IMG/VR virus record: IMGVR_UViG_3300031259_000042
Coordinates: 1 to 27,757 of that record
DNA: 27,757 bases
Reading direction: 5' to 3' (one strand)
DNA from: a virus
Positions 9,474-23,253 of the stretch are shown here, piece after piece (the stretch's first letter is position 1; the number at the start of each line of letters is the position of its first letter). The position numbers and the translations under genes were made by a program. The notes under the pieces are model-generated. The model worked only from the letters and a program-made list of their open reading frames with translations, was not told where the DNA came from and searched no databases.

Positions 9474-9797
9474 TCAATTCGGAAGAGTGGAACCTGCGCG
9501 CAGGTCCCACTCTTCCGCCCACTTCATTGCATCCAGCACCTGGGGCGTTGGAGGAGATGCAGGTCCGAGGTACTGCGCGATTTCGCCAGCCCCAGCGCGC
9601 GCCTTCGGCTCCGCCTGCTTGAGGTGCAGCAGAGCCAGGATGGCATCGGCTGTCGGGTGCCTCAGCAGGTCGCGATAAAGCGCCAGCACACGGTTGGCCG
9701 GCTGCGTATCCAGAACGTCGAAGGTCCACCCGGTGCCGCGGATCAGGACGGGATCTATCTCGTCCCAATCCAGTTCGCCACCGGCTGCTATTCCCCC
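9474..9797 (-). CDS. Second tail assembly chaperone frame, expressed by probable -1 frameshift (gpGT-like)
   Basis: This reading frame has no ATG. It is open in the -1 frame relative to the upstream chaperone gene, passes its stop codon and continues to TGA at 9474. The encoded stretch begins GIAAGGELDWDEIDPV and continues as a plausible helical domain (VLALYRDLLRHPTADAILALL) ending AGSTLPN, 107 residues in all. A GGGGGAA run at 9791-9797 ends one base before the upstream TAG and allows a clean GGG to GGG slip in the P site. In lambda and many siphophages the same layout yields a rare fusion (gpGT) that, with the short form, binds the tape measure during tail assembly. A GTG at 9689 could start a separate short protein, but frameshift fusion fits better. 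Confidence 0.75.
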   Translation of the reverse strand, partial: GGIAAGGELDWDEIDPVLIRGTGWTFDVLDTQPANRVLALYRDLLRHPTADAILALLHLKQAEPKARAGAGEIAQYLGPASPPTPQVLDAMKWAEEWDLRAGSTLPN

Positions 9798-10102
9798 GGC
9801 TCGATCACCTGGAGGCCGGAAGCTCCCTTCACGGCTGAGACCGCCTCAGCAAACGTGTTGAGGTCTAACCACCCACCGAGCAATTCATCCGTAACCTCCG
9901 GATAGTTGCGGCGGATGGCGATCCCCACGATGGGCAGGAACGTGTCGAAAAAGCGCTGGAAGTTCTCGTCCGTGATGTGCTCAAAGTCCTTGCTCGAGAG
10001 AACGTCATAGTTCTCCTTCATCTGCGCATAGGACAGGCTGGGAACGAGATACTTCTGACTGTTGAGATAGAGCGGTACACCCTTGAAGGGGACAAGAGGC
10101 AT
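9788..10102 (-). CDS. Tail assembly chaperone, short form (gpG-like)
   Basis: A 104-residue protein starting at ATG 10102, with AGGAG 10 bases upstream. Longer open frame upstream is ignored because this ATG has the binding site and the start MPLVPFKGVPLYLN is typical. The sequence is small, helical and charged (LSYAQMKENYDVLSSKDFEHITDENFQRFF), like chaperones located between tube and tape measure genes. It probably coats the hydrophobic parts of the tape measure protein during assembly. Its stop codon overlaps a -1 frameshift window leading to a longer fusion. A strong GC hairpin sits just before its ribosome binding site. Confidence 0.82.
   Translation of the reverse strand: MPLVPFKGVPLYLNSQKYLVPSLSYAQMKENYDVLSSKDFEHITDENFQRFFDTFLPIVGIAIRRNYPEVTDELLGGWLDLNTFAEAVSAVKGASGLQVIEPGE
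9791..9797 (-). promoter_or_regulatory. Candidate -1 ribosomal frameshift slippery site
   Basis: On the minus strand the last sense codons of the short chaperone gene read CCG GGG GAA followed by TAG. The GGGGGAA run lets the P-site tRNA re-pair perfectly after a one-base backward slip. The A-site GAA to GGA re-pairing has one mismatch, so it is not a canonical XXXYYYZ site, but the adjacent stop codon would favour pausing. The -1 frame has a stop at TGA in the codons for Ala-Glu about 14 codons upstream, so the slip must fall in this short window, and this is the best site in it. Confidence 0.6.
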
Positions 10103-10116
10103 GATGCAGATCTCCT

Positions 10117-10140
10117 GCGGAGCCGCCAGTGCGGCCCCGC
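10117..10140 (-). other. GC-rich hairpin between tube and chaperone genes
   Basis: Two 10-base arms, GCGGAGCCGC and GCGGCCCCGC on the plus strand, pair fully apart from one position that becomes G:U in the minus-strand RNA; the loop has four bases. It ends right next to the AGGAG binding site of the chaperone gene and starts 37 bases after the tube gene stop. No T tract follows, so it is not a standard terminator. It could protect the 3' end of a tube message or limit chaperone translation. Confidence 0.7.
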
Positions 10141-10176
10141 TGCGCGGTTGTTCGTGCGTTGAGGATGTGAGTGGAG

Positions 10177-10935
10177 TTAGTTGGCGTAGAGCGTGCCAAG
10201 GTTGTCGCTGGCATCCGCGCATGCAGTGAAGTCCACATCCGCGACCCAGAAGTCATCCTGCTTGGATGGCAGCGAGTAGGAGCCGAAGGCGACGTTGTTG
10301 AGCTCCAGAGCCAGGAACTTCCCTTTGGTCGAGTTGAAGAGCATGAGCTTCGTGATGACGGTGTTCCCGATCGGCAGCTGCGTCAGCGCCAGCGAGACAC
10401 CTCCGGTCGTGGTCGCCGTGTAGCTGATGGCAACGTGTGTGGCAGTCTCCGACGCGTTGAAGGCATAGCTCGCGGCAGTGGGGGATCCGCCCGTAACCGC
10501 GGGCGTGAAGGCGTACTGGCCCACAGCCGGGGCAGACGCCACCTTGACCATCTGGTCGCCCGTGTCGTTGTTGATGGCGCCGAGGTCCTCGACGACGGTG
10601 AGCCCGGAGCCAACGGTGGGAGTGATGCTCGCGGCCGTCGCGTGGACCTCATCGATGACCGGCAGGTTGCCGCCGGTGGTCTGCGCGGCAGCAAAGATGA
10701 TCTGATTGATGTCCGCAGCGCTAAAGCTCGCGATCTTGAGCTTGCCGGTGACCTGCATCTTGCCTTGCGCAACGAGTACAGCGAACTTCTTGTTGCCAAA
10801 GAGCGACTTCAGATCGCCCTTGAAGTCCACCTGCGCGTCCTGCATCACCTTCAGACGCGTGGGCGTCGGGTTGGTGGGCAGGTTGCCCGCCACTGGAGTG
10901 ACCGTCACCACTCCCGATCCAAACTGTGCATTCAT
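10177..10935 (-). CDS. Major tail tube protein
   Basis: A 252-residue beta-rich protein starting at ATG 10935, preceded by a strong GGAGGG binding site. The N-terminal part (TPTRLKVMQDAQVDFKGDLKSLFGNKKF) and the long Thr/Val/Gly-rich remainder fit siphovirus tube proteins. Residues 140-178 (GQYAFTPAVTGGSPTAASY onward) look like an inserted surface module and share a pattern with the tail-tip protein. Gene order (tail terminator, this gene, chaperones, tape measure) makes the call firm. It is one of the few late genes with noncoding gaps on both sides, both holding hairpins, as expected for a very abundant virion protein with separate expression control. Confidence 0.88.
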   Translation of the reverse strand: MNAQFGSGVVTVTPVAGNLPTNPTPTRLKVMQDAQVDFKGDLKSLFGNKKFAVLVAQGKMQVTGKLKIASFSAADINQIIFAAAQTTGGNLPVIDEVHATAASITPTVGSGLTVVEDLGAINNDTGDQMVKVASAPAVGQYAFTPAVTGGSPTAASYAFNASETATHVAISYTATTTGGVSLALTQLPIGNTVITKLMLFNSTKGKFLALELNNVAFGSYSLPSKQDDFWVADVDFTACADASDNLGTLYAN

Positions 10936-10970
10936 GGCCGTCCCTCCTCAGAGACTGGGGTTGAGGTTGC

Positions 10971-11005
10971 AAACAAAACGGCTGCCCGCAGAGAGCGGAC
11001 AGCCG
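10971..11005 (-). terminator. Intrinsic terminator between tail terminator protein gene and tube gene
   Basis: On the minus strand, arms CGGCTG/CAGCCG and CCGC/GCGG (10 pairs, one internal mismatch, five-base loop) at 10979-11005 are followed at once by TTTTGTTT at 10978-10971. It lies 22 bases after the stop of the upstream gene and about 35 bases before the tube gene start. This has the form of a rho-independent terminator or attenuator. Because it lies within the late operon it must be partial, read through, or followed by a second promoter. Confidence 0.8.
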
Positions 11006-11027
11006 CGACATAGGTACCTGAGAGCTT

Positions 11028-11495
11028 CTAGGGAAAGACAATCCGGATGGGCACGATCGCAGCGCCCTGGGAGGTCTCGATGCCCGGGTCGACGTCGGCA
11101 TCGCCATCGATCCAGCAGTTATCGACCAGGCCGCCGAGCGTGAGCTTGTTCGAAGTGATGCTGTCCGGTGACATGGCCGCCGTGATTGTGGCGAGCATCC
11201 CACTGAGCACGCTGCCACCAAAGCTCTGTTCCCTTCCGATGGCCTGCGAGAGTGGATCAGGACACTGGAAGTACAGGATCAGGAAGCCGACCGCTTCGAC
11301 CTTCTGAAGACCGTGGGGCCGCTGGCGGAACATATACCGCGCCTCGACGACAAAGAGCGCGGGCTGCTTCGCTGACGACAGCGTCGGTGGCTTGGTATGA
11401 CGCCGCGAGATGACTTTGAACGTCGATTGACACTTTGTCTGCAGCAGCTCCAGCAGCGCTGTCCAGGCAGGCTCGGGATTGAATGCATTCGTCAT
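11028..11495 (-). CDS. Tail terminator-like protein
   Basis: A 155-residue protein starting at ATG 11495, overlapping the stop of the upstream gene (ATGA). The longer open frame further upstream belongs to a shadow of the neighbouring gene. Visible pattern: N-terminal helix PAWTALLELLQTK, a beta strand ending LFVVEARYMFRQRP, then FLILYFQCPD and C-terminal beta strands to IVPIRIVFP. This alpha-beta layout and length fit tail terminator proteins (lambda U or GTA g8 type), which cap the tube and join it to the neck. The family call rests mostly on position between neck and tube genes, since no strong motif is known for this group. Confidence 0.68.
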   Translation of the reverse strand: MTNAFNPEPAWTALLELLQTKCQSTFKVISRRHTKPPTLSSAKQPALFVVEARYMFRQRPHGLQKVEAVGFLILYFQCPDPLSQAIGREQSFGGSVLSGMLATITAAMSPDSITSNKLTLGGLVDNCWIDGDADVDPGIETSQGAAIVPIRIVFP

Positions 11496-11971
11496 GCTGA
11501 CTCGCCTACTGCGGCATCGATGCGCGCTTCGATGGTTGCGATGATCGCCGGCTGATATTCCCGCAGCGAAGGATTCATGATGGGGTGCGGAGCAACCTGG
11601 AAGGCAGCGTGCCCGTGGGTGAAGACGCTGCGGCCATCGGCGGAGAAGAAGCCGTACAAGACGCCCTGGACGGCAGGGACGCTGGTGCCTTCGTCGAACC
11701 ACACGCCCATGGGCTTGCGGCCAACCATGCTGGAGACGGTGCCCTTGATGTAGCCATCGGTCTGCGTAACCTTCGGGCTGCCGAGTACTGCGCCGACGAA
11801 CTGGCCGCTCCGGCTGACGATGGGATCGCCACCCGCATGCCCGGCAACCACATACGCCAGCCCCTTCATCGCGTCGGCCATGCCCCCGCGGATGCCAGCG
11901 AGCACGTTGGCTTTCACGCGATCGAGATAATCGGGTATGCCTGAGGCGTCGACGGTGAATTGCGGGATCAC
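11492..11971 (-). CDS. HK97 gp10-like head-tail joining (neck) protein
   Basis: A 159-residue protein. The start is a GTG at 11971 overlapping the TGA of the upstream gene (GTGA), with GGAGAAGG upstream. The N-terminal helix (IPDYLDRVKANVLAGIRGGMADAMKGLAYVV), the middle GYIKGTVSS and WFDEGTSVP segments and the C-terminal VAPHPIMNPSLREYQPAI are characteristic of the gp10-like family (HK97_gp10). Members act at the head-tail interface or as tail completion proteins. It is coupled by overlaps on both sides to an adaptor gene and the tail terminator gene, exactly where a neck protein is expected. Confidence 0.8.
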   Translation of the reverse strand: MIPQFTVDASGIPDYLDRVKANVLAGIRGGMADAMKGLAYVVAGHAGGDPIVSRSGQFVGAVLGSPKVTQTDGYIKGTVSSMVGRKPMGVWFDEGTSVPAVQGVLYGFFSADGRSVFTHGHAAFQVAPHPIMNPSLREYQPAIIATIEARIDAAVGESA

Positions 11972-12630
11972 TGGACCTTCTCCGTCGTCGTGCGGTTGAT
12001 GCGGGTGACGCGATAGTCTCGATCATCCTGGCGCTTGTTGTAGTTCGGCCAGCAACGCTTATAACGCTCGATGACGGCCAACGTGCCCGGCGGTGCCGGT
12101 GCCTGGGCGTCATAGGTCACATGCTCGCCGCCGGCGTCGCGCTGAGAGGTTATGCCCGTGCCCTGACGGCCCCGCCAGCGCAGCGAGACCCATTCCAGGA
12201 CTGCCTGGACCACATCCGTGGGCGGTGTGACGTAACCGGCGTTGTAGGTGACGCTGACGGCCGCGCCGTCCCGCATTGTCGATCCGCCGACGAAGAAGAT
12301 GTCCCGCAAGCGCTCCGGATCGGGCTGCTGCACGATGCTGTAGCCGGTGGCGATGCCATCGGATGAAGCCGACACGCCGACACCGGCTACCGTGAGTGCC
12401 GAGACGCTGTTGATGGGCCAGTGACGCAGGCAGAGATGCGTGCCGCCGTCGCCTTCGCGAACCTCGGTATAGTCCTCCGCGAGGAAGTCGAAGCGGTCGA
12501 TGGCGCGGAGGAAGTCTGCACTGGTGGCCGTGATGGCATCGGACAGGGCCTGGTCGAAGTCCGTTGCTTCATCAGGGTTGCCGAGCCACTGATTCAACTG
12601 CGCGAGCGTGATGAGGTCGCCGGTGGCCAT
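11968..12630 (-). CDS. Second head-tail adaptor-fold protein (gp6-like connector)
   Basis: A 220-residue protein starting at ATG 12630, overlapping the previous stop by one base (TGATG). It opens with ITLAQLNQWLG and a helical region FDQALSDAITATSADFLRAIDRF, then strands LCLRHWPINSVSALTV and VSVTYNAGYVTPPTDVVQAVLEWVSLRW. This is the helix-strand-helix pattern of gp6/gp8-type connector proteins (phage_gp6-like family). The protein upstream has the same overall pattern, so two related adaptor-fold genes lie in tandem. One may serve as the adaptor on the portal and the other as an added ring or stopper. The C-terminal tail is basic and Arg-rich. Confidence 0.72.
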   Translation of the reverse strand: MATGDLITLAQLNQWLGNPDEATDFDQALSDAITATSADFLRAIDRFDFLAEDYTEVREGDGGTHLCLRHWPINSVSALTVAGVGVSASSDGIATGYSIVQQPDPERLRDIFFVGGSTMRDGAAVSVTYNAGYVTPPTDVVQAVLEWVSLRWRGRQGTGITSQRDAGGEHVTYDAQAPAPPGTLAVIERYKRCWPNYNKRQDDRDYRVTRINRTTTEKVQ

Positions 12631-13253
12631 CAGGAGATCCTGTTCATTTCCGCGCTCAGCAGGTTGAGCGCAACGGGCGGGATGCCCTTGCTGGTGGACC
12701 CGTTCTCATAGAGGTCCTGGATGATGAAGAGCAGGGCCTGGCGGATCTTGATGGGTATATCCGCAGGCGAGTCGCCATAGCCGCAGATGAATTCGACGAG
12801 GACGTTGTTGGGCACGCACTGCAGCGGCGGCCAGGGTGTGGCGAAGGGCGGAAGGATGCGCGCGGTCTGGGGCCCGGCGCCCTGATCGACGAGTTGATAA
12901 CCCCAGGCCGTCATGTCCTGCGAGGTTCCAGAGACGTCGGTATAGGTGAAGCTCACAATCGACTGAAACGGAGGCTTGGGCAGCAGCAGTTCGGAGTAGC
13001 CTTCACGTCCGTAGCGCATGTTCCGGCGCGGCCAGCCATCGCGAGCCCAGCGCCAGGTCTGCGTGATGAGTGCGCAGTGGATCTCGTCCTCGACCATTTC
13101 GCGCGCAGTGGCGATGAGCGGACGAATGCGCGCCGCGAGGATCTGGGCCTGCACCGGGTCGGCATTCTCGCGCGGATCGAGCCCGAGCTGAACCTTGGCG
13201 TCGTAGAGCGTGACGGGCTCGATGGCCGGCGGCGTGATGCAAATGAGGGACAT
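12630..13253 (-). CDS. Head-tail adaptor protein, phiE125 gp8-like
   Basis: A 207-residue protein starting at ATG 13253. It carries the typical beginning PPAIEPVTLYDAKVQLGLD, a helix region IRPLIATAREMVEDEIHCALITQTW, the strand set around LPKPPFQSIVSFTYTD, and a final FICGYGDSPADIPIKIRQALLFIIQDLYEN. This is the phiE125 gp8 / GTA g6 family pattern. These proteins bind under the portal as a 12-fold ring. The gene follows the decoration gene after a 63-base gap with a hairpin and overlaps the second adaptor gene by one base. Confidence 0.85.
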   Translation of the reverse strand: MSLICITPPAIEPVTLYDAKVQLGLDPRENADPVQAQILAARIRPLIATAREMVEDEIHCALITQTWRWARDGWPRRNMRYGREGYSELLLPKPPFQSIVSFTYTDVSGTSQDMTAWGYQLVDQGAGPQTARILPPFATPWPPLQCVPNNVLVEFICGYGDSPADIPIKIRQALLFIIQDLYENGSTSKGIPPVALNLLSAEMNRIS

Positions 13254-13286
13254 GCGGGCTCGCGGAAGAGGAAGGGTGAAAGGTGG

Positions 13287-13306
13287 GGAGGGGCCGAAGC
13301 CCCTCC
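13287..13306 (-). other. GC hairpin with UUCG loop between decoration and adaptor genes
   Basis: Perfect eight-base arms GGAGGGGC/GCCCCTCC enclose a loop that reads TTCG on the minus strand, giving the extra-stable C(UUCG)G tetraloop in RNA. It begins 10 bases after the decoration gene stop. There is no T tract after it. It may block 3' exonucleases or cause a partial transcription stop before the low-copy adaptor genes. Confidence 0.72.
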
Positions 13307-13316
13307 GGAGTTGGGT

Positions 13317-13793
13317 TTAGGCCAGGACGGTGGGTGAGGACTCACCAGCGTAGCGGCCTTCGGAGAGGATCAGGATCACAGCGGCCAGCGTGGAGTTCGC
13401 GCCGGCGGTGATGTGGACCCGGAGGTAGCTGGAGCCGGCAGGCAGCGCGTCGGCGTCGATCTCGATCTGGTAGAAGATGTTGTCGTTCGCGCTGGGAGTA
13501 ATGCCTGCGGCGGTTGCCGACAGCCGCGCGCTGAGGACATCGCCAGCGGCGGTCTCCTGCGAGAAGTAGTCGAAGGCGATCGCAGTGGCTCCATCGCCGG
13601 CGGCATCGGTGCAGGCCTCAAGCAGGATGGCCGTGGGTGCGGCTGCCGTGATGCCCAGCGCGACGATGATGGAGGCGTGACGCCACATGCTGAAGTTGAA
13701 TGCCGCGGAGGCTTTGCCGCCGGTGGCATCGACAGGGGGCAGCAGAAGGGCCGTGTGGCCGCTCTGCGCTGCGTAGAAACGATCTCCCGCCAT
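13317..13793 (-). CDS. Head decoration-like structural protein
   Basis: A 158-residue protein starting at ATG 13793 with AAAGGA nine bases upstream. It is beta-rich: RFYAAQSGHTALLLPPVD at the start, NFSMWRHASIIVALG in the middle, and SANDNIFYQIEIDADALP and EGRYAGESSPTVLA near the end. This pattern recurs in small virion proteins encoded next to the capsid gene in several tailed phages, where a decoration or capsid-stabilising role is likely. It is not a known enzyme. The gene lies alone between two hairpin-containing gaps right after the major capsid gene, which suggests separate, high-level expression. Function is inferred from position and composition. Confidence 0.62.
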   Translation of the reverse strand: MAGDRFYAAQSGHTALLLPPVDATGGKASAAFNFSMWRHASIIVALGITAAAPTAILLEACTDAAGDGATAIAFDYFSQETAAGDVLSARLSATAAGITPSANDNIFYQIEIDADALPAGSSYLRVHITAGANSTLAAVILILSEGRYAGESSPTVLA

Positions 13794-13809
13794 GGGGTGA
13801 TGTCCTTTC

Positions 13810-13823
13810 GGCTCCGAAGAGCC
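13810..13823 (-). other. Small UUCG-loop hairpin upstream of the decoration gene
   Basis: Arms GGCTC/GAGCC enclose TTCG on the minus strand, a C(UUCG)G tetraloop hairpin. It lies immediately upstream of the AAAGGA binding site of the decoration gene and 21 bases past a larger hairpin. It could stabilise the 5' end of a processed decoration message. Confidence 0.6.
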
Positions 13824-13844
13824 TGTGAGAGGTTTACAGACCGT

Positions 13845-13869
13845 GCGGCGAGGTGATTGGCCTCGCCGC
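13845..13869 (-). other. Strong hairpin downstream of the major capsid gene
   Basis: Perfect nine-base arms GCGGCGAGG/CCTCGCCGC with a seven-base loop, 24 bases after the capsid stop codon. No T tract follows on the minus strand (next bases ACGGTCTG). It fits a 3' stabilising hairpin or a weak pause site for the most abundant late message. Confidence 0.75.
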
Positions 13870-13893
13870 GATCTCTGCTATGGCCAGCGCCGC

Positions 13894-15192
13894 TTAGGAG
13901 CGGGTCTGGAGCTGGATGAACGGCGACTGCAGGTTGGTGCCGTTCTTGGGGGTGACGGGCTTGTCCCAGAGGGGCTGGCCTGCGACACGCATCTGCCAGC
14001 GGAAGGCCTGCTCACCGGTGAGGAAGGCGACATGGATCGAGGTATCCGCCTTGACGCCCCCGCGCTTGCCGAGCATGTACTCGTCGAAGTTCGCAAGGGT
14101 GATGTCGCCCTGCGTGCCGCAGGTCTGGGCATATTCCACCGGGATGACAGGCAGGCCCAGCAGCAGGCCATAGCTGTTGTTGTTGCCCTTCATACCCGGA
14201 GGCGTGTAGAGCAGCTCGACAGCGGTGCCCGAACCGCGGGTAAGCTCCCAGAGCTGGTCTTCCATGTCCTGGTTGATGAACCACGCTGCGTTGGCGCGCA
14301 GGTAGCCCGGCATGCGGGCATACATCTTTTCGATGTTCTTGGTGACGATGGAGCCTGCGGCCTGCCCGGACTCCTTATTGAGCACCAGGAGAGCCGGGCA
14401 GTTCCTGATGCCGAACGGGCCGGCACCCGAACCCGGGTTGTTGAAGATGGCGTCGCCGACCTTGAAGCTGAACTCATCCGGGACCACACGATCAACGAAC
14501 GCCTTCCATGCGGTACCGTCTTCGAGCACCTCGTCCGTCGCGTAGGTGAGGACGGTGAGCTTGTCGGTCTGAAACGCCATCTCGCGGAACTTCGGCTTGG
14601 TGCCGGTGTACTGGCCCGCTTCACGCGTCCAGAAGCCAGCGACGCCGCCGTTGCGCTGACCATCTACACGGCTCGCATCCGTCGCACCGAAGAGCACGAG
14701 GCGATTGGAGCTCATTGGCTGCTGGCGGCAGCGGTTCGCGACGGGATCGGCTGCGAAGGTACGCGAGATGATGCCCGGAGCGAACTCCGCCGGCACCAGG
14801 ATTGCGCCTTCAGCATCCGTGGTCTCATTGCCGCCCTGCGCAGCGGCCACAATGCGGACATCCGCGTCATGCGCGTTGAGCTTCGCGTGCCGGACCGCGC
14901 CCATGAAATCCGCGAGGGACTCGAAAGGCTTGCCTTCCGCGTTGTCGTGGCCGACCTGGACGGCGCCGGGACCGGAGACCTGCACGCCGGTGGCGTTGCG
15001 ATCGAGCTCGATCAGCTCGAGGGCGGCCGTGAGGTCGGCGTTGGTCTGGGTGACCGATGCCTTGTGCGCGTCGAAGGCGGCGCGCTCTTCCGCCGTGAGG
15101 TCGCGGTTGCCTTCCGCGACGGCCTTATTGTGGATCGCTTCCATCGCCTGGCGGTGCATAGCGATCTTTTGCCGCAGTGCGTTGATATTCAT
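13894..15192 (-). CDS. Major capsid protein, HK97 fold
   Basis: A 432-residue protein of the HK97 major capsid family (Phage_capsid). Residues 1 to about 95 form a charged helical region (INALRQKIAMHRQAMEAIHNK onward) that serves as the built-in scaffold, or delta domain, and is usually cut off by the prohead protease. The rest carries the family core: ILVPAEFAPGIISRTF, REMAFQTDKLTVLTYATDEVLED, VGDAIFNNPGSGAGPFGI, AAWFINQDMEDQLWEL and LLLGLPVIPVEYA. The start ATG at 15192 has a strong GGAGGGG upstream. The gene stands alone between gaps of 123 and 100 bases, both with strong hairpins, unlike the tightly overlapping genes around it. Confidence 0.95.
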   Translation of the reverse strand: MNINALRQKIAMHRQAMEAIHNKAVAEGNRDLTAEERAAFDAHKASVTQTNADLTAALELIELDRNATGVQVSGPGAVQVGHDNAEGKPFESLADFMGAVRHAKLNAHDADVRIVAAAQGGNETTDAEGAILVPAEFAPGIISRTFAADPVANRCRQQPMSSNRLVLFGATDASRVDGQRNGGVAGFWTREAGQYTGTKPKFREMAFQTDKLTVLTYATDEVLEDGTAWKAFVDRVVPDEFSFKVGDAIFNNPGSGAGPFGIRNCPALLVLNKESGQAAGSIVTKNIEKMYARMPGYLRANAAWFINQDMEDQLWELTRGSGTAVELLYTPPGMKGNNNSYGLLLGLPVIPVEYAQTCGTQGDITLANFDEYMLGKRGGVKADTSIHVAFLTGEQAFRWQMRVAGQPLWDKPVTPKNGTNLQSPFIQLQTRS

Positions 15193-15278
15193 CGTGGCCC
15201 CTCCTGGGCTCGTGGGTTGGGGTTGTGGGGACGCGCTGCGGCAGGCACGCCATGGGGCGCACGTTGCAAACGCACGGA

Positions 15279-15300
15279 GCCAGCGGCTTAGGCCGCCGGC
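15279..15300 (-). other. GC-rich hairpin between protease and capsid genes
   Basis: Nine-base arms GCCAGCGGC and GCCGCCGGC (plus strand) pair with one position that is G:U in minus-strand RNA; the loop has four bases. It begins 15 bases after the protease stop codon. No T tract follows. The rest of the 123-base gap shows no other clear element except the GGAGGGG binding site of the capsid gene. Confidence 0.7.
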
Positions 15301-15315
15301 GATGTTGGGAGATCC

Positions 15316-16440
15316 TTAGAGCGCGGCCAGCTCCAGCTCGCGTTGGCGAGCCCTGGCGTTGCGCTCCGCGTGCTTCGCGCTGGCGGAGCTGCAACCGCAG
15401 CCATCTGCGTTGCAGTCGGTGACCGTGCAACCGTTGCAATCGCCATCACCACAGGAATCACAGCCGCAGGTGCAGGTGACGGTGGTGTCGTCGGCCACTG
15501 CACTCTTCACGGCACTCTGGCTGTCGAGGCGCTCGCGGAAGGTGCCCGCTGCGCTCATCTGGGTGCTGGGGGAGTCAACCGAGACCCCGAAGCGCGCCAG
15601 GACGCTATCGAAGGTGTCGATGGAATCGACCATGCCGAGCTTCAGCGCCTGTTTGGCACCGAAACAGAGACCCTGGCCGAAGGTGTCATGCACGGTCTTC
15701 TTCGAGACTTTGCGCCCCGCAGCAACTGCGGACTCGAAAGCGTCGCCGGCCTCATCCACGGAGTCCTGGATGTGCTGCTTCGCCGCGTCGGAGAGTGGCT
15801 CGTAGGGGTTGCCCTCGGCCTTGTTCTCACCAAACTTGATAAGCGTGTTGGCGATTCCCTGCTTTTTGAACCACTCGCTGGCGTCCTGGTGCACGCAATA
15901 GACACCGATGGAGCCCGTCTTCGAACTGGGGCTCGCGACGATCTCCGTTGCTCCCGCGACGGCATAGTACGCGGCCGAAGCGCAGAGCATGTTGACGCAG
16001 GCGATGGTCTGTTTCTTGCCGCGCGAATTGCGGATCTCCGTTGCGAGCTCGTCAACGCCTTCCACGGTGCCGCCAGGCGAGTCCACGTCGATAACGATGG
16101 CCTGGACGTTGGGGTCGCTCGCCGCAGCTTTGTACTGCCGCAGGAAACGCATCGTGGAGGTGGCCTGAGGACCGCACATATCGCCCATCGCGGAGCCGCG
16201 ATGCAGGATGAGGCCATAGAGCGGCAACACAGCCACCGATCCAGTGCTGGCAGACTGCACTTTCTGCGCGCGCGCGGCCTGCAGCTCGGTTTCAGCCTGG
16301 ATCTTCGCGAGCGTATCGGCCGAAGCGGAGCCGCCGAGGGCCTTCATCTCGAGCACGGCATAGATGCCTTCGAGATACTCGGGCATGACGGCCCAGCGCT
16401 GGGTGCGCATTGCGGCCAGAATGGCGCTGTATTGACGCAT
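15316..16440 (-). CDS. Prohead protease, S49 (SppA/lambda C-like), with Cys-rich C-terminal tail
   Basis: A 374-residue S49 peptidase. Motif VIDVDSPGG lies at residues 116-124; the catalytic Ser is Ser155 in MLCASAAYY and the general-base Lys is Lys174 in SSKTGSIGVY. Such proteases cut the scaffold region of the capsid protein during head maturation. After the catalytic domain ends near residue 290, a linker leads to a tail with nine Cys residues (323, 325, 327, 330, 335, 338, 343, 348, 350) spaced by Gly, Asp, Asn and Thr, then a basic helix. That tail is not part of the standard protease and may bind metal or be disulfide-bonded. The ATG directly follows the TAG stop of the portal gene. The capsid gene follows after 123 bases. 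Confidence 0.9.
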   Translation of the reverse strand: MRQYSAILAAMRTQRWAVMPEYLEGIYAVLEMKALGGSASADTLAKIQAETELQAARAQKVQSASTGSVAVLPLYGLILHRGSAMGDMCGPQATSTMRFLRQYKAAASDPNVQAIVIDVDSPGGTVEGVDELATEIRNSRGKKQTIACVNMLCASAAYYAVAGATEIVASPSSKTGSIGVYCVHQDASEWFKKQGIANTLIKFGENKAEGNPYEPLSDAAKQHIQDSVDEAGDAFESAVAAGRKVSKKTVHDTFGQGLCFGAKQALKLGMVDSIDTFDSVLARFGVSVDSPSTQMSAAGTFRERLDSQSAVKSAVADDTTVTCTCGCDSCGDGDCNGCTVTDCNADGCGCSSASAKHAERNARARQRELELAAL

Positions 16441-20066: not shown

Positions 20067-20503
20067 CCCGCTCTGCGATTCACGAACGCAGCAAGCTTCC
20101 CAACGGGCTTCGCCGGGCCACCAGCATGCGTGTTGACTTTCTCGCGATCGAGCGGCGTCATGCCGAAGAGTCGCAGGATCTTAGTTACCTCCGCGATATA
20201 ACGGAGCTGCATCTTGCCCGGGCGCCGGGACTCGTAGATCGCCGTACAGAGCTGCTCAAGAAGCGCCCGATGCTCAACGGTGAGCAGGCCCGGAGGAAAC
20301 TCTGCGACCTTCTCGTGCCAGATCGCTTCGCGCGCCCCAGGCGGGATACTGCAGGGCATCGACCAGTGCGCCGGAGGTTCGCCGACTCCGCCGCGACCTG
20401 CGGCGACGTCGGCCGCGGCCACGCGGGAAGCGTAACGCTTCTTATCGTGCGCCGTAGAGCCCCTAAGCTCGAGTACCTTGATCGGTTGACGAGGACGGCC
20501 CAT
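20063..20503 (-). CDS. terS: Terminase small subunit, P27-like
   Basis: A 146-residue protein with the typical P27-family beginning MGRPRQPIKVLELRGSTAHDK, a Pro-rich middle (GEPPAHWSMPCSIPPGAREAIWHEKV) and helices around LTVEHRALLEQLCTAIYESRR and ITKILRLFGMTPLDREKV-type segments. This family recognises the packaging site and brings DNA to the large subunit. ATG 20503 has GAAGGG three to eight bases upstream. The gene is preceded by a 271-base noncoding region and overlaps terL by four bases. Confidence 0.9.
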   Translation of the reverse strand: MGRPRQPIKVLELRGSTAHDKKRYASRVAAADVAAGRGGVGEPPAHWSMPCSIPPGAREAIWHEKVAEFPPGLLTVEHRALLEQLCTAIYESRRPGKMQLRYIAEVTKILRLFGMTPLDREKVNTHAGGPAKPVGKLAAFVNRRAG

Positions 20504-22610: not shown

Positions 22611-23144
22611 CTATGCCACCGAACCTCGCAGCTGCGAGTACTTCCCCATCAGGTCGACCATCTTCTTGCCGCCTGGCTGCGCATAGTTGTTGCCTGGCAT
22701 GCTCGCCCAGATGTTCGAGCACGCCGCGATCGCTTCCTGCACGCGACCTTCTCCCAGCAGCTTGATCGCTCCACGCTCGCGCACCAGCTCCAACGCCGCA
22801 CGGTCCTGAGACAGCGGAGAAAAGTCACCCAGCTTCAACTGCAACGCGAGCTGGACCCAGGAACGCCGCATGAACTGGTAACGCCCCGCAGCATCGGAAT
22901 ACAACGGCTTCGATCCAGGTATCGCAGGGTTCGCCGCACGAATCAGCTTCGGTGAGCGATTCATGAACGGGTGCGAAGAGAAGTCCGCGAAGATCTCGCG
23001 ACGCCCGTCAGCACCCGTGACGATGACGTCATAGCCATCGCACTTCGTCTGCGCACACAGCGACGTGCCTTCGCTCCATGCGATCAGATCCAGGAACGCG
23101 ACCAGCTCCGCCCCGCCTGCCTGCACTGCAGTGATCACAGCCAT
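22611..23144 (-). CDS. Endolysin, GH104 lambda R-like lytic transglycosylase
   Basis: From ATG 23144 (GGGAG seven bases upstream) the protein has 177 residues. It closely follows the lambda R pattern: AFLDLIAWSEGT with catalytic Glu25, GYDVIVTG, FADFSSHP, SDAAGRYQFMRRSW, LGDFSPLSQDRAALELVRERGA and CSNIWASMPGNNY. This family cuts the MurNAc-GlcNAc bond with formation of an anhydro ring. No signal peptide or membrane anchor is seen, so it would need a holin for release. The longer frame upstream is rejected because it would read through a hairpin region. The gene lies before the terminase genes, so lysis and packaging genes share one transcript. Confidence 0.94.
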   Translation of the reverse strand: MAVITAVQAGGAELVAFLDLIAWSEGTSLCAQTKCDGYDVIVTGADGRREIFADFSSHPFMNRSPKLIRAANPAIPGSKPLYSDAAGRYQFMRRSWVQLALQLKLGDFSPLSQDRAALELVRERGAIKLLGEGRVQEAIAACSNIWASMPGNNYAQPGGKKMVDLMGKYSQLRGSVA

Positions 23145-23170
23145 CGCGCAACTCCCAACTTGAAACGGTG

Positions 23171-23202
23171 AAGGCCTGCACGCGGCGACGCATGCAGGCC
23201 TT
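23171..23202 (-). other. Long hairpin upstream of the endolysin gene
   Basis: Perfect 10-base arms AAGGCCTGCA/TGCAGGCCTT around a 12-base loop that can add three more pairs (GCG/CGC). It ends 26 bases before the endolysin start. Only a weak T run follows on the minus strand (CACCGTTTC), so it is more likely a processing, pausing or translation-control structure than a full terminator. Confidence 0.75.
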
Positions 23203-23208
23203 CGGGCA

Positions 23209-23253
23209 GTCACCTTGGCAAGTGACAGGTTTTCGCGGCAGGTTCTCCGCGAA
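23209..23253 (-). other. Two further inverted repeats in the endolysin leader
   Basis: TTCGCGG/CCGCGAA (perfect seven-base arms, eight-base loop) lies at 23232-23253, just 16 bases after the stop of the preceding gene. GTCAC/GTGAC lies at 23209-23226. Together with the 10-base-arm hairpin they fill most of the 124-base gap. No alternative gene in this gap is convincing. Confidence 0.55.

Follow-up and report, generated by a model that had tools for sequence, protein, structure and literature searches.

Hairpins around the capsid, decoration and tail-tube genes and a conserved capsid leader RNA in the late operon of a probable acidobacterial siphophage

One example of a capsid gene set apart by an RNA signal is gene 10 of T7, behind which the leaky terminator Tphi cuts the expression of downstream genes (PMC5592923), and another is LUZ100, whose capsid gene is followed by a leaky terminator lowering the genes downstream (PMC10134795). 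Terminators are also able to raise the mRNA upstream of them (PMC11696848). The putRNA of HK022, a phage-encoded RNA of two stem-loops and ~70 nt, acts in cis (PMC9378689). As to phages with comparable late operons, putative terminators are marked in the HK97 record immediately downstream of the capsid gene gp5 and before and after the major tail gene gp12. Lambda has such structures around D, E, and FI, with a U-tract hairpin between the decoration gene D and the capsid gene E, and a UUCG-loop hairpin, without a U tract, after E.

The locus analyzed here is the late operon within a window of 27,757 nt, its genes and hairpins read on the minus (coding) strand. The late gene order is the same as in HK97, and, as in HK97- and lambda-type operons, one hairpin follows the capsid gene without delay and others lie on either side of the tail gene, the post-tail hairpin being likewise devoid of a U tract. 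HK97 differs in the spacing of protease and capsid genes (2 nt), which leaves neither a gap nor a leader before the capsid gene, in the absence of a decoration gene, and in extra terminators marked after the portal gene and before the tape-measure gene. Lambda differs in that D precedes E and in having no leader RNA; the covariance model of the leader described below found no match in either HK97 or lambda. The T7 type differs in relying on a local promoter and an RNA polymerase encoded by the phage, and the available portions of its descriptions mention no comparable structured leader. The original prediction for this locus foresaw neither the HK97/lambda precedent nor a specific structured RNA at the capsid start. 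The features in question are as follows, a strict hairpin being defined as unambiguous, with at least 8 pairs, a loop of at most 10 nt and an energy of -13 kcal/mol or better.

15316-16440, minus strand: head maturation protease, S49 family (PF01343, E 1.2e-28; phrog_53, E 1.3e-83), adjoining the leader upstream
15226-15307, minus strand: capsid (MCP) leader RNA, ~80 nt (covariance model 58 bits, E 9.6e-11, a score that is not independent, this sequence having sat in the seed of the model, R1)
15279-15300, minus strand: leader hairpin 1, loop CUAA (strict, -18.1 kcal/mol)
15232-15274, minus strand: outer stem P1 of the leader, arms 15269-15274 and 15232-15237 (model alignment, pair counts)
about 15245-15262, minus strand: leader hairpin 2, loop CCAU, inside P1 (model alignment, pair counts)
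13894-15192, minus strand: major capsid protein (MCP), HK97 fold family (PF05065, E 1.2e-33; phrog_10 major head protein, E 4.3e-38)
13845-13869, minus strand: capsid 3' hairpin (strict, -17.8), no U tract
13810-13823, minus strand: small hairpin with a C(UUCG)G loop, immediately next to the Shine-Dalgarno sequence of the decoration gene
13317-13793, minus strand: probable decoration protein, between MCP and connector (AlphaFold model)
13287-13306, minus strand: decoration 3' hairpin, C(UUCG)G loop (strict, -16.5), no U tract
10979-11005, minus strand: pre-tube hairpin (strict), then UUUUGUUU, intrinsic-terminator-like
10177-10935, minus strand: probable tail tube (major tail) protein (phrog_8234, function unknown, E 8.6e-44)
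10117-10140, minus strand: tube 3' hairpin (strict, -21.0), no U tract
9480-9517: pre-tape-measure hairpin (17 bp, -31), the strongest of the late region

The decoration protein matched no sequence family; its AlphaFold model is an all-beta sandwich (pLDDT 85) with weak fold matches, among them a Pam1 capsid-shell chain and YomS. The model of the tube protein is of low confidence (pLDDT 58), with tail tube proteins as the top fold matches. Solved structures searched by sequence with these two proteins returned no match.

Most late junctions are tight, as originally described: those joining TerS, TerL, a small gene, portal, and protease, and those joining connector 1, connector 2, the gp10-like gene, and the tail terminator, all overlap or abut. 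The five gaps said to flank the capsid, decoration, and tube genes are indeed there, 123 nt wide between protease and capsid, 100 nt between capsid and decoration, 63 nt between decoration and connector, 92 nt before the tube gene and 74 nt after it. An independent strict scan recovered the five hairpins assigned to them with exact coordinates on the minus strand, and the small hairpin at 13810-13823 (GGCUC-UUCG-GAGCC), the two C(UUCG)G loops (here and at 13287-13306), and the one T tract, behind 10979-11005, are equally in place. The minus strand of the window holds 33 strict hairpins, five of them within the 452 nt of gaps, where ~0.5 would be expected (Poisson, ~2e-4, by hand calculation). 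Energy alone is unremarkable, coding sequence forming hairpins equally strong (for example, 20381-20413, -26); the weight of those in the gaps rests on position and conservation. The further claim, that hairpins bracket exactly the high-copy genes, is too strong, as the strongest hairpin of the late region precedes the low-copy tape-measure gene. As a counter-example this hairpin was discarded for want of conservation: of the six relatives checked, four lack it, one has a weaker hairpin, and one a terminator-like hairpin.

Relatives, found among others as prophages in genomes of Acidobacteria (Bryocella elongata strain DSM 22489 is one host), display the same layout. Among 51 non-redundant relatives, the junctions are wide between protease and capsid (47/47), capsid and decoration (43/43), and decoration and connector (38/38), and most remaining late junctions are overlaps. 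Best local folding energy separated gaps from coding windows only modestly and, being too blunt in GC-rich DNA, was replaced by the strict-hairpin test. By this test, the gap between capsid and decoration is positive in 24/43 relatives versus 15/430 coding windows (and in nearly all relatives under a looser test), and that between decoration and connector in 28/38 versus 16/380, for odds ratios of 35 and 64 at these two best-sampled gaps. With only eight relatives to compare, the tube 3' gap is positive in 5/8 versus 2/80 and the pre-tube gap in 4/8 versus 3/80. Across these four gaps the odds ratios are 26-65, with similar margins over shuffled sequence. The hairpins start at a median of 14-22 nt past the stop codon, the position of 3'-end structures, and while the sequence of the stems is wholly replaced between relatives, their place is kept, usually 5-30 nt past the stop. 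At the pre-tube junction, for example, relative L002 has a hairpin with a different stem and a U tract, and L003 a far longer one (~30 bp) without a U tract. A hairpin abutting the decoration Shine-Dalgarno sequence has at least 4 bp in 29/42 relatives and at least 5 bp in 20. Related phages with conserved genes thus keep both gaps and hairpins, as the original prediction required, and this shows that selection on structure, not on sequence, maintains the bracketing throughout a diverse set of uncultivated phages.

Could these hairpins be no more than common intrinsic terminators or insulators, leaky ones, that keep toxic or costly virion genes from being transcribed by accident in the lysogen, with an antiterminator-modified late polymerase ignoring them and translation setting copy number? 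Terminator-like sites do occur after the decoration gene in 10/38 relatives and before the leader in 21/47, or, with three doubtful sites removed, as a stem plus U tract immediately 5' of the leader in ~18/47, the closest relative included; the pre-tube hairpin of the window has its U tract, and the late regions of SPP1 and T1-like phages are described as bounded by stem-loop terminators. However, 2/24 capsid 3' hairpins in the relatives are followed by a U tract, compared to 13/28 decoration 3' hairpins, yet the former are placed as conservedly, and a sequence-conserved leader is left unexplained. We consider this explanation doubtful, if far from implausible. The U-tract contrast itself appears to separate a terminator (decoration) from a read-through protector (capsid). 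Of the functions proposed at first, processing, 3' protection, and partial termination, the pattern fits the latter two, and the element before the capsid gene differs in kind.

At that junction the strict test is weak (15/47), because the conserved object is a multi-part RNA, and this is how the leader was found. The hairpin at 15279-15300 is real, but it does not stand alone, being one half of a larger conserved structure composed of hairpin 1 and a bipartite stem-loop, each with a C-N-(A/U)-N loop. Helix 1 is paired in 96.9% of cells among the relatives, 13 of 17 pairs have changed on both sides, and the covariation score is 0.511 versus 0.229 for shuffled and at most 0.141 for slid alignments. 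The pairs include 73 G-U and only 4 A-C, an asymmetry by which the leader is a sense RNA, a DNA palindrome being ruled out. The first loop base is C in 67/68 cases and the third A or U in 68/68, and the C-G pair closing both hairpins is invariant in all 34 rows. Covariation, a shared structure, and sense orientation together mark the leader as a new conserved structured RNA.

At least 33 relatives, with capsid proteins ~50% identical, carry the leader, and of 42 model matches in ~0.9 Mb, 41 fall immediately upstream of MCP in sense orientation. The distance to the MCP start is 31-95 nt in the relatives, versus 8-1013 nt to the protease stop, and the leader stays with the capsid gene where genes are inserted upstream. 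It is thus tied to the capsid start and not to where the preceding gene ends, and is of a different kind from the other hairpins. Structured RNAs of Acidobacteria, Acido-1 and Acido-Lenti-1, have been described (PMC2864571), but neither these (RF01686, RF01687) nor other families of Rfam 15 gave a relevant match to the leader at the gathering threshold or at a relaxed E-value; relaxed matches were irrelevant, miRNA-like on the long stem of L003 and due to chance in the window. When all viral contigs were scanned with a DNA pattern of the leader core, the matches outside the phage group were mostly chance ones that the covariance model rejected, and for this reason the motif looks clade-restricted. 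Weak matches in host chromosomes (L094-L096, L098, L099) are within chance for the genomes searched, and none of the tested phage structural genes is nearby. What is new here is the conserved capsid leader, absent from the libraries searched; hairpin bracketing as such was already known.

The leader may alternatively be an autogenous control site: by binding its two similar loops, a phage protein, perhaps an assembly factor or the capsid protein itself, would match capsid translation or mRNA decay to the progress of assembly. The shared closing pair and loop would suit such a role, as would the restriction to the capsid gene despite upstream insertions, but the distance to the ribosome site is variable, host factors fit equally, and the partner is hypothetical, and we judge this unlikely. 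Highly improbable, in our opinion, is a put-like RNA that would act on the polymerase during elongation and let it read through the downstream hairpins: the leader resembles HK022 put, as described, in its two stem-loops within ~70-80 nt, and several hairpins do follow it, but put RNAs are found near early promoters, upstream of the terminators they suppress, whereas the leader is in the middle of the late operon, often with a terminator upstream. That strongly translated genes simply need their own ribosome sites, with GC-rich gaps folding by chance, is close to negligible: high GC does yield many hairpins in coding sequence, as the modest separation by local energy reflects, but the odds ratios, the similar margins over shuffled sequence, and the covariation of the leader already disfavor it.

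It seems more likely (a probability of about 0.6) that this acidobacterial siphophage has a late operon consisting of a single string of genes split into expression modules around the highest-copy products, with a dedicated capsid leader in addition. As to termination, processing, stability, protein binding, and copy number, the sequences suggest the following scheme. The generic GC hairpins that follow the capsid, decoration, and tube genes, and the one that precedes the tube gene, would serve as 3' protectors, leaky terminators, or processing boundaries. Most polymerases would pass them, the upstream capsid, decoration, and tube messages would be left with a stable 3' end, and the low-copy genes downstream would receive less transcript. 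The leader would most likely give the capsid message a 5' end that is both protected and regulated, whether by processing within the U-rich stretch immediately preceding hairpin 1, by a protein binding the two similar C-N-(A/U)-N loops, or by both, and would raise or tune capsid synthesis. Within the window, the combination of GC stem and U tract typical of intrinsic terminators is found solely at 10979-11005, and termination at the capsid and tube 3' hairpins is doubtful because they lack U tracts. The stems, of 8-11 bp, are short for typical RNase III sites, which are long, near-perfect duplexes. Simple occlusion of the ribosome site by the leader is unsupported, as the leader is ~40 nt from the start codon and this spacing varies. 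A terminator before the leader, such as many relatives have, would lower and not raise capsid mRNA, unless the capsid gene has its own promoter or the polymerase is antiterminated; no promoter was identified. We tentatively entertain, at somewhat less than even odds, the idea that the leader represents a novel class of regulatory RNA, dedicated to MCP in a large group of acidobacterial phages, and that its two similar loops bind a partner, be it the capsid protein, a phage regulator, or the polymerase, so that capsid synthesis would be linked to assembly or to the transcription of late genes.

How a single operon of a tailed phage yields hundreds of capsid subunits and about a dozen portals is, T7 and lambda aside, understood only in part. 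The HK97-type solution, of hairpins around the capsid and tail genes, is retained across diverse uncultivated phages, and prophage relatives in genome-sequenced Acidobacteria make end mapping and reporter tests feasible. The capsid leader could be a new switch or stabilizer for the production of the capsid protein.

The window is a virus record of 27,757 bases, whose closest relatives are a prophage of Bryocella elongata (Acidobacteriota), with a capsid protein 82% identical, and metagenomic virus contigs. Its late region follows a siphophage order:

Late region, minus strand, first half: terminase small and large subunits, small membrane-like protein, portal, S49-family protease, HK97-fold capsid
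Late region, minus strand, continued: probable decoration protein, two head-tail connectors, gp10-like protein and tail terminator (these two named from gene order), probable tail tube, frameshifted tail chaperones, tape measure
15226-15307, minus strand: structured RNA leader of about 80 nt before the capsid gene

The decoration protein matched no sequence family, and is predicted with confidence (pLDDT 85) to fold as an all-beta sandwich. The model of the tail tube is poor (pLDDT 58), its top structural matches are tail tube proteins, and the gene upstream of the tail chaperones probably encodes such a protein. The chaperone gene (9478-10102, minus strand) resembles a G/GT pair: where the 104-aa frame ends, reading can continue in the -1 frame up to a stop near 9478, which points to programmed -1 frameshifting of the kind seen in lambda and HK97. 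The endolysin frame (22611-23213) has a 15-bp inverted repeat at its 5' end (23170-23203, -29 kcal/mol), and its true start may be located downstream of this repeat. A second contig, L041 (IMGVR_UViG_3300047160_006428), is by coincidence also 27,757 bases long and represents a distinct phage (portal 44% identical, no nucleotide match).

As to the original observation, of strong hairpins in the gaps flanking the capsid, decoration and tube genes, the five gaps and all of the hairpins were recovered at the stated positions, and a scan for strict hairpins (at least 8 pairs, loop of 10 nt or less, -13 kcal/mol or better) returned five of these hairpins, with identical coordinates. The gaps hold more hairpins than expected (5 in 452 nt versus approximately 0.5); equally stable hairpins are also present within genes, so stability is no proof by itself. 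The most stable hairpin in the late region (9480-9517, 17 bp, -31 kcal/mol) precedes the tape-measure gene and overlaps with the frameshifted chaperone frame at its end; it is missing in four of six relatives checked, with a weaker hairpin in one and a terminator-like hairpin in another (L013).

For comparison, 80 related contigs were gathered via alignment of three portal proteins, annotated with iterated profile models and reduced to 51 non-redundant loci. The gap pattern is strikingly constant among these: gaps are present between protease and capsid (86-1203 nt, 47/47 loci), capsid and decoration (54-130 nt, 43/43), decoration and connector (63-1439 nt, 38/38), tail terminator and tube (28-372 nt, 8/8), and tube and chaperone (64-969 nt, 8/8), while median spacing is -4 nt from the large terminase subunit to the small protein, -4 nt from the latter to portal, and -1 nt from portal to protease. 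Strict hairpins, beginning a median of about 15 nt 3' of the stop codon, occur in 24 of 43 capsid-decoration gaps (versus 15 of 430 coding windows) and in 28 of 38 decoration-connector gaps (versus 16 of 380). Hairpins and gaps are thus kept at the same junctions, and the stems, unrelated among most loci, are replaced, indicating that sequence turns over while structure and place are maintained. A U tract follows 13 of the 28 decoration hairpins and 2 of the 24 capsid hairpins, and a second, smaller hairpin adjoins the decoration-gene Shine-Dalgarno in 29 of 42 loci. At the portal/protease junction, a hairpin with 5 or more bp adjoins the protease Shine-Dalgarno in 15 of 45 loci; this hairpin extends into the end of the portal coding sequence and may therefore be due to codon constraint. 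Some hairpin arms are made of short repeated words, GGGGGTAGGG, GTCAGTGGTCAGTTG and GTGAAAGAGTGAACGAG (14442-14516 of relative L003; capsid and decoration gaps of loci L035, L037, L038 and L081), which hints at new intergenic hairpins arising through duplication and inversion of simple repeats.

Hairpin bracketing of capsid and tail genes is already known. In the HK97 record, putative terminators are marked downstream of the capsid gene gp5 and on either side of the major tail gene gp12; in lambda, hairpins separate D from E and follow E. Late regions of SPP1 and T1-like phages are described as modules bounded by stem-loops, and a mycobacteriophage has a terminator after the major tail gene. 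Termination after the capsid gene is described for T7 and LUZ100 (PMC5592923, PMC10134795).

The capsid leader is a different matter: we found no description of it in the literature searched, mainly open-access papers, and no matching family in Rfam. The hairpin at 15279-15300 is present as originally noted; a side-by-side reading of the protease-capsid gaps revealed it to be only the 5' half of a common element. In 20 copies aligned without structural guidance, its consensus forms three helices, and 12 of their 17 pairs have changed on both sides. A covariance model searched against about 0.9 Mb from 70 sources found 42 matches, 41 of them on the sense strand of the protease-capsid gap, including about 13 loci outside the seed. 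Compensatory changes, sought in related phages, are evident in 34 copies (13 of 17 pairs changed on both sides, 93.9% of cells paired), with a covariation score of 0.511, versus 0.229 +/- 0.017 when shuffled and at most 0.141 with slid register; this alignment, being fitted to the model, leans towards the structure, and the unguided one agrees. There are 73 G-U pairs and 4 A-C pairs, which marks the capsid-sense transcript as the functional strand. Both apical loops read C-N-(A/U)-N, their closing C-G pair does not vary in any of the 34 rows, and hairpin 1 is preceded in most copies by a U-rich stretch that resembles, and may be, an RNase E-type site.

The leader ends 31-95 nt (median 43) ahead of the capsid start and begins 8-1013 nt past the protease stop, at loci whose capsid proteins share a median identity of 51%; the narrow range of distances on one side and the wide range on the other imply that it is part of the capsid gene's unit and remains beside that gene where other DNA has been inserted. 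Directly upstream, about 18 of 47 loci possess a stem that resembles a terminator and has a U tract (21 in the scan, three sites being discounted). This stem, AAAGGCTCCGC..GCGGGGCCTTTT, is conserved in sequence across distant loci (L002, L010, L035, L039, L043, L050 and others) and is present in the closest relative of the window and missing from the window. Strong leader matches were found in only two of the genomes searched (299 of the host class, 396 of the phylum), both before a prophage capsid gene. A protein search independently turned up ten prophage capsid genes, and four of these have a significant leader immediately before them: two were known already, one has the same sequence as a viral contig of the set, and one is new (host genome G201, E 1.1e-4). 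The model had no match in HK97, lambda, phiC31, a Bradyrhizobium phage, Caulobacter phage Kronos or Streptomyces phage Dagobah.

The leader could be an autogenous binding site or, less probably, a put-like antitermination RNA. More probably it forms the structured 5' region of the capsid message, and the 3' hairpins would give the messages of capsid, decoration and tube protection or partial termination. Judged from sequence, the anatomy of the late operon fits a message split into stability and termination modules.
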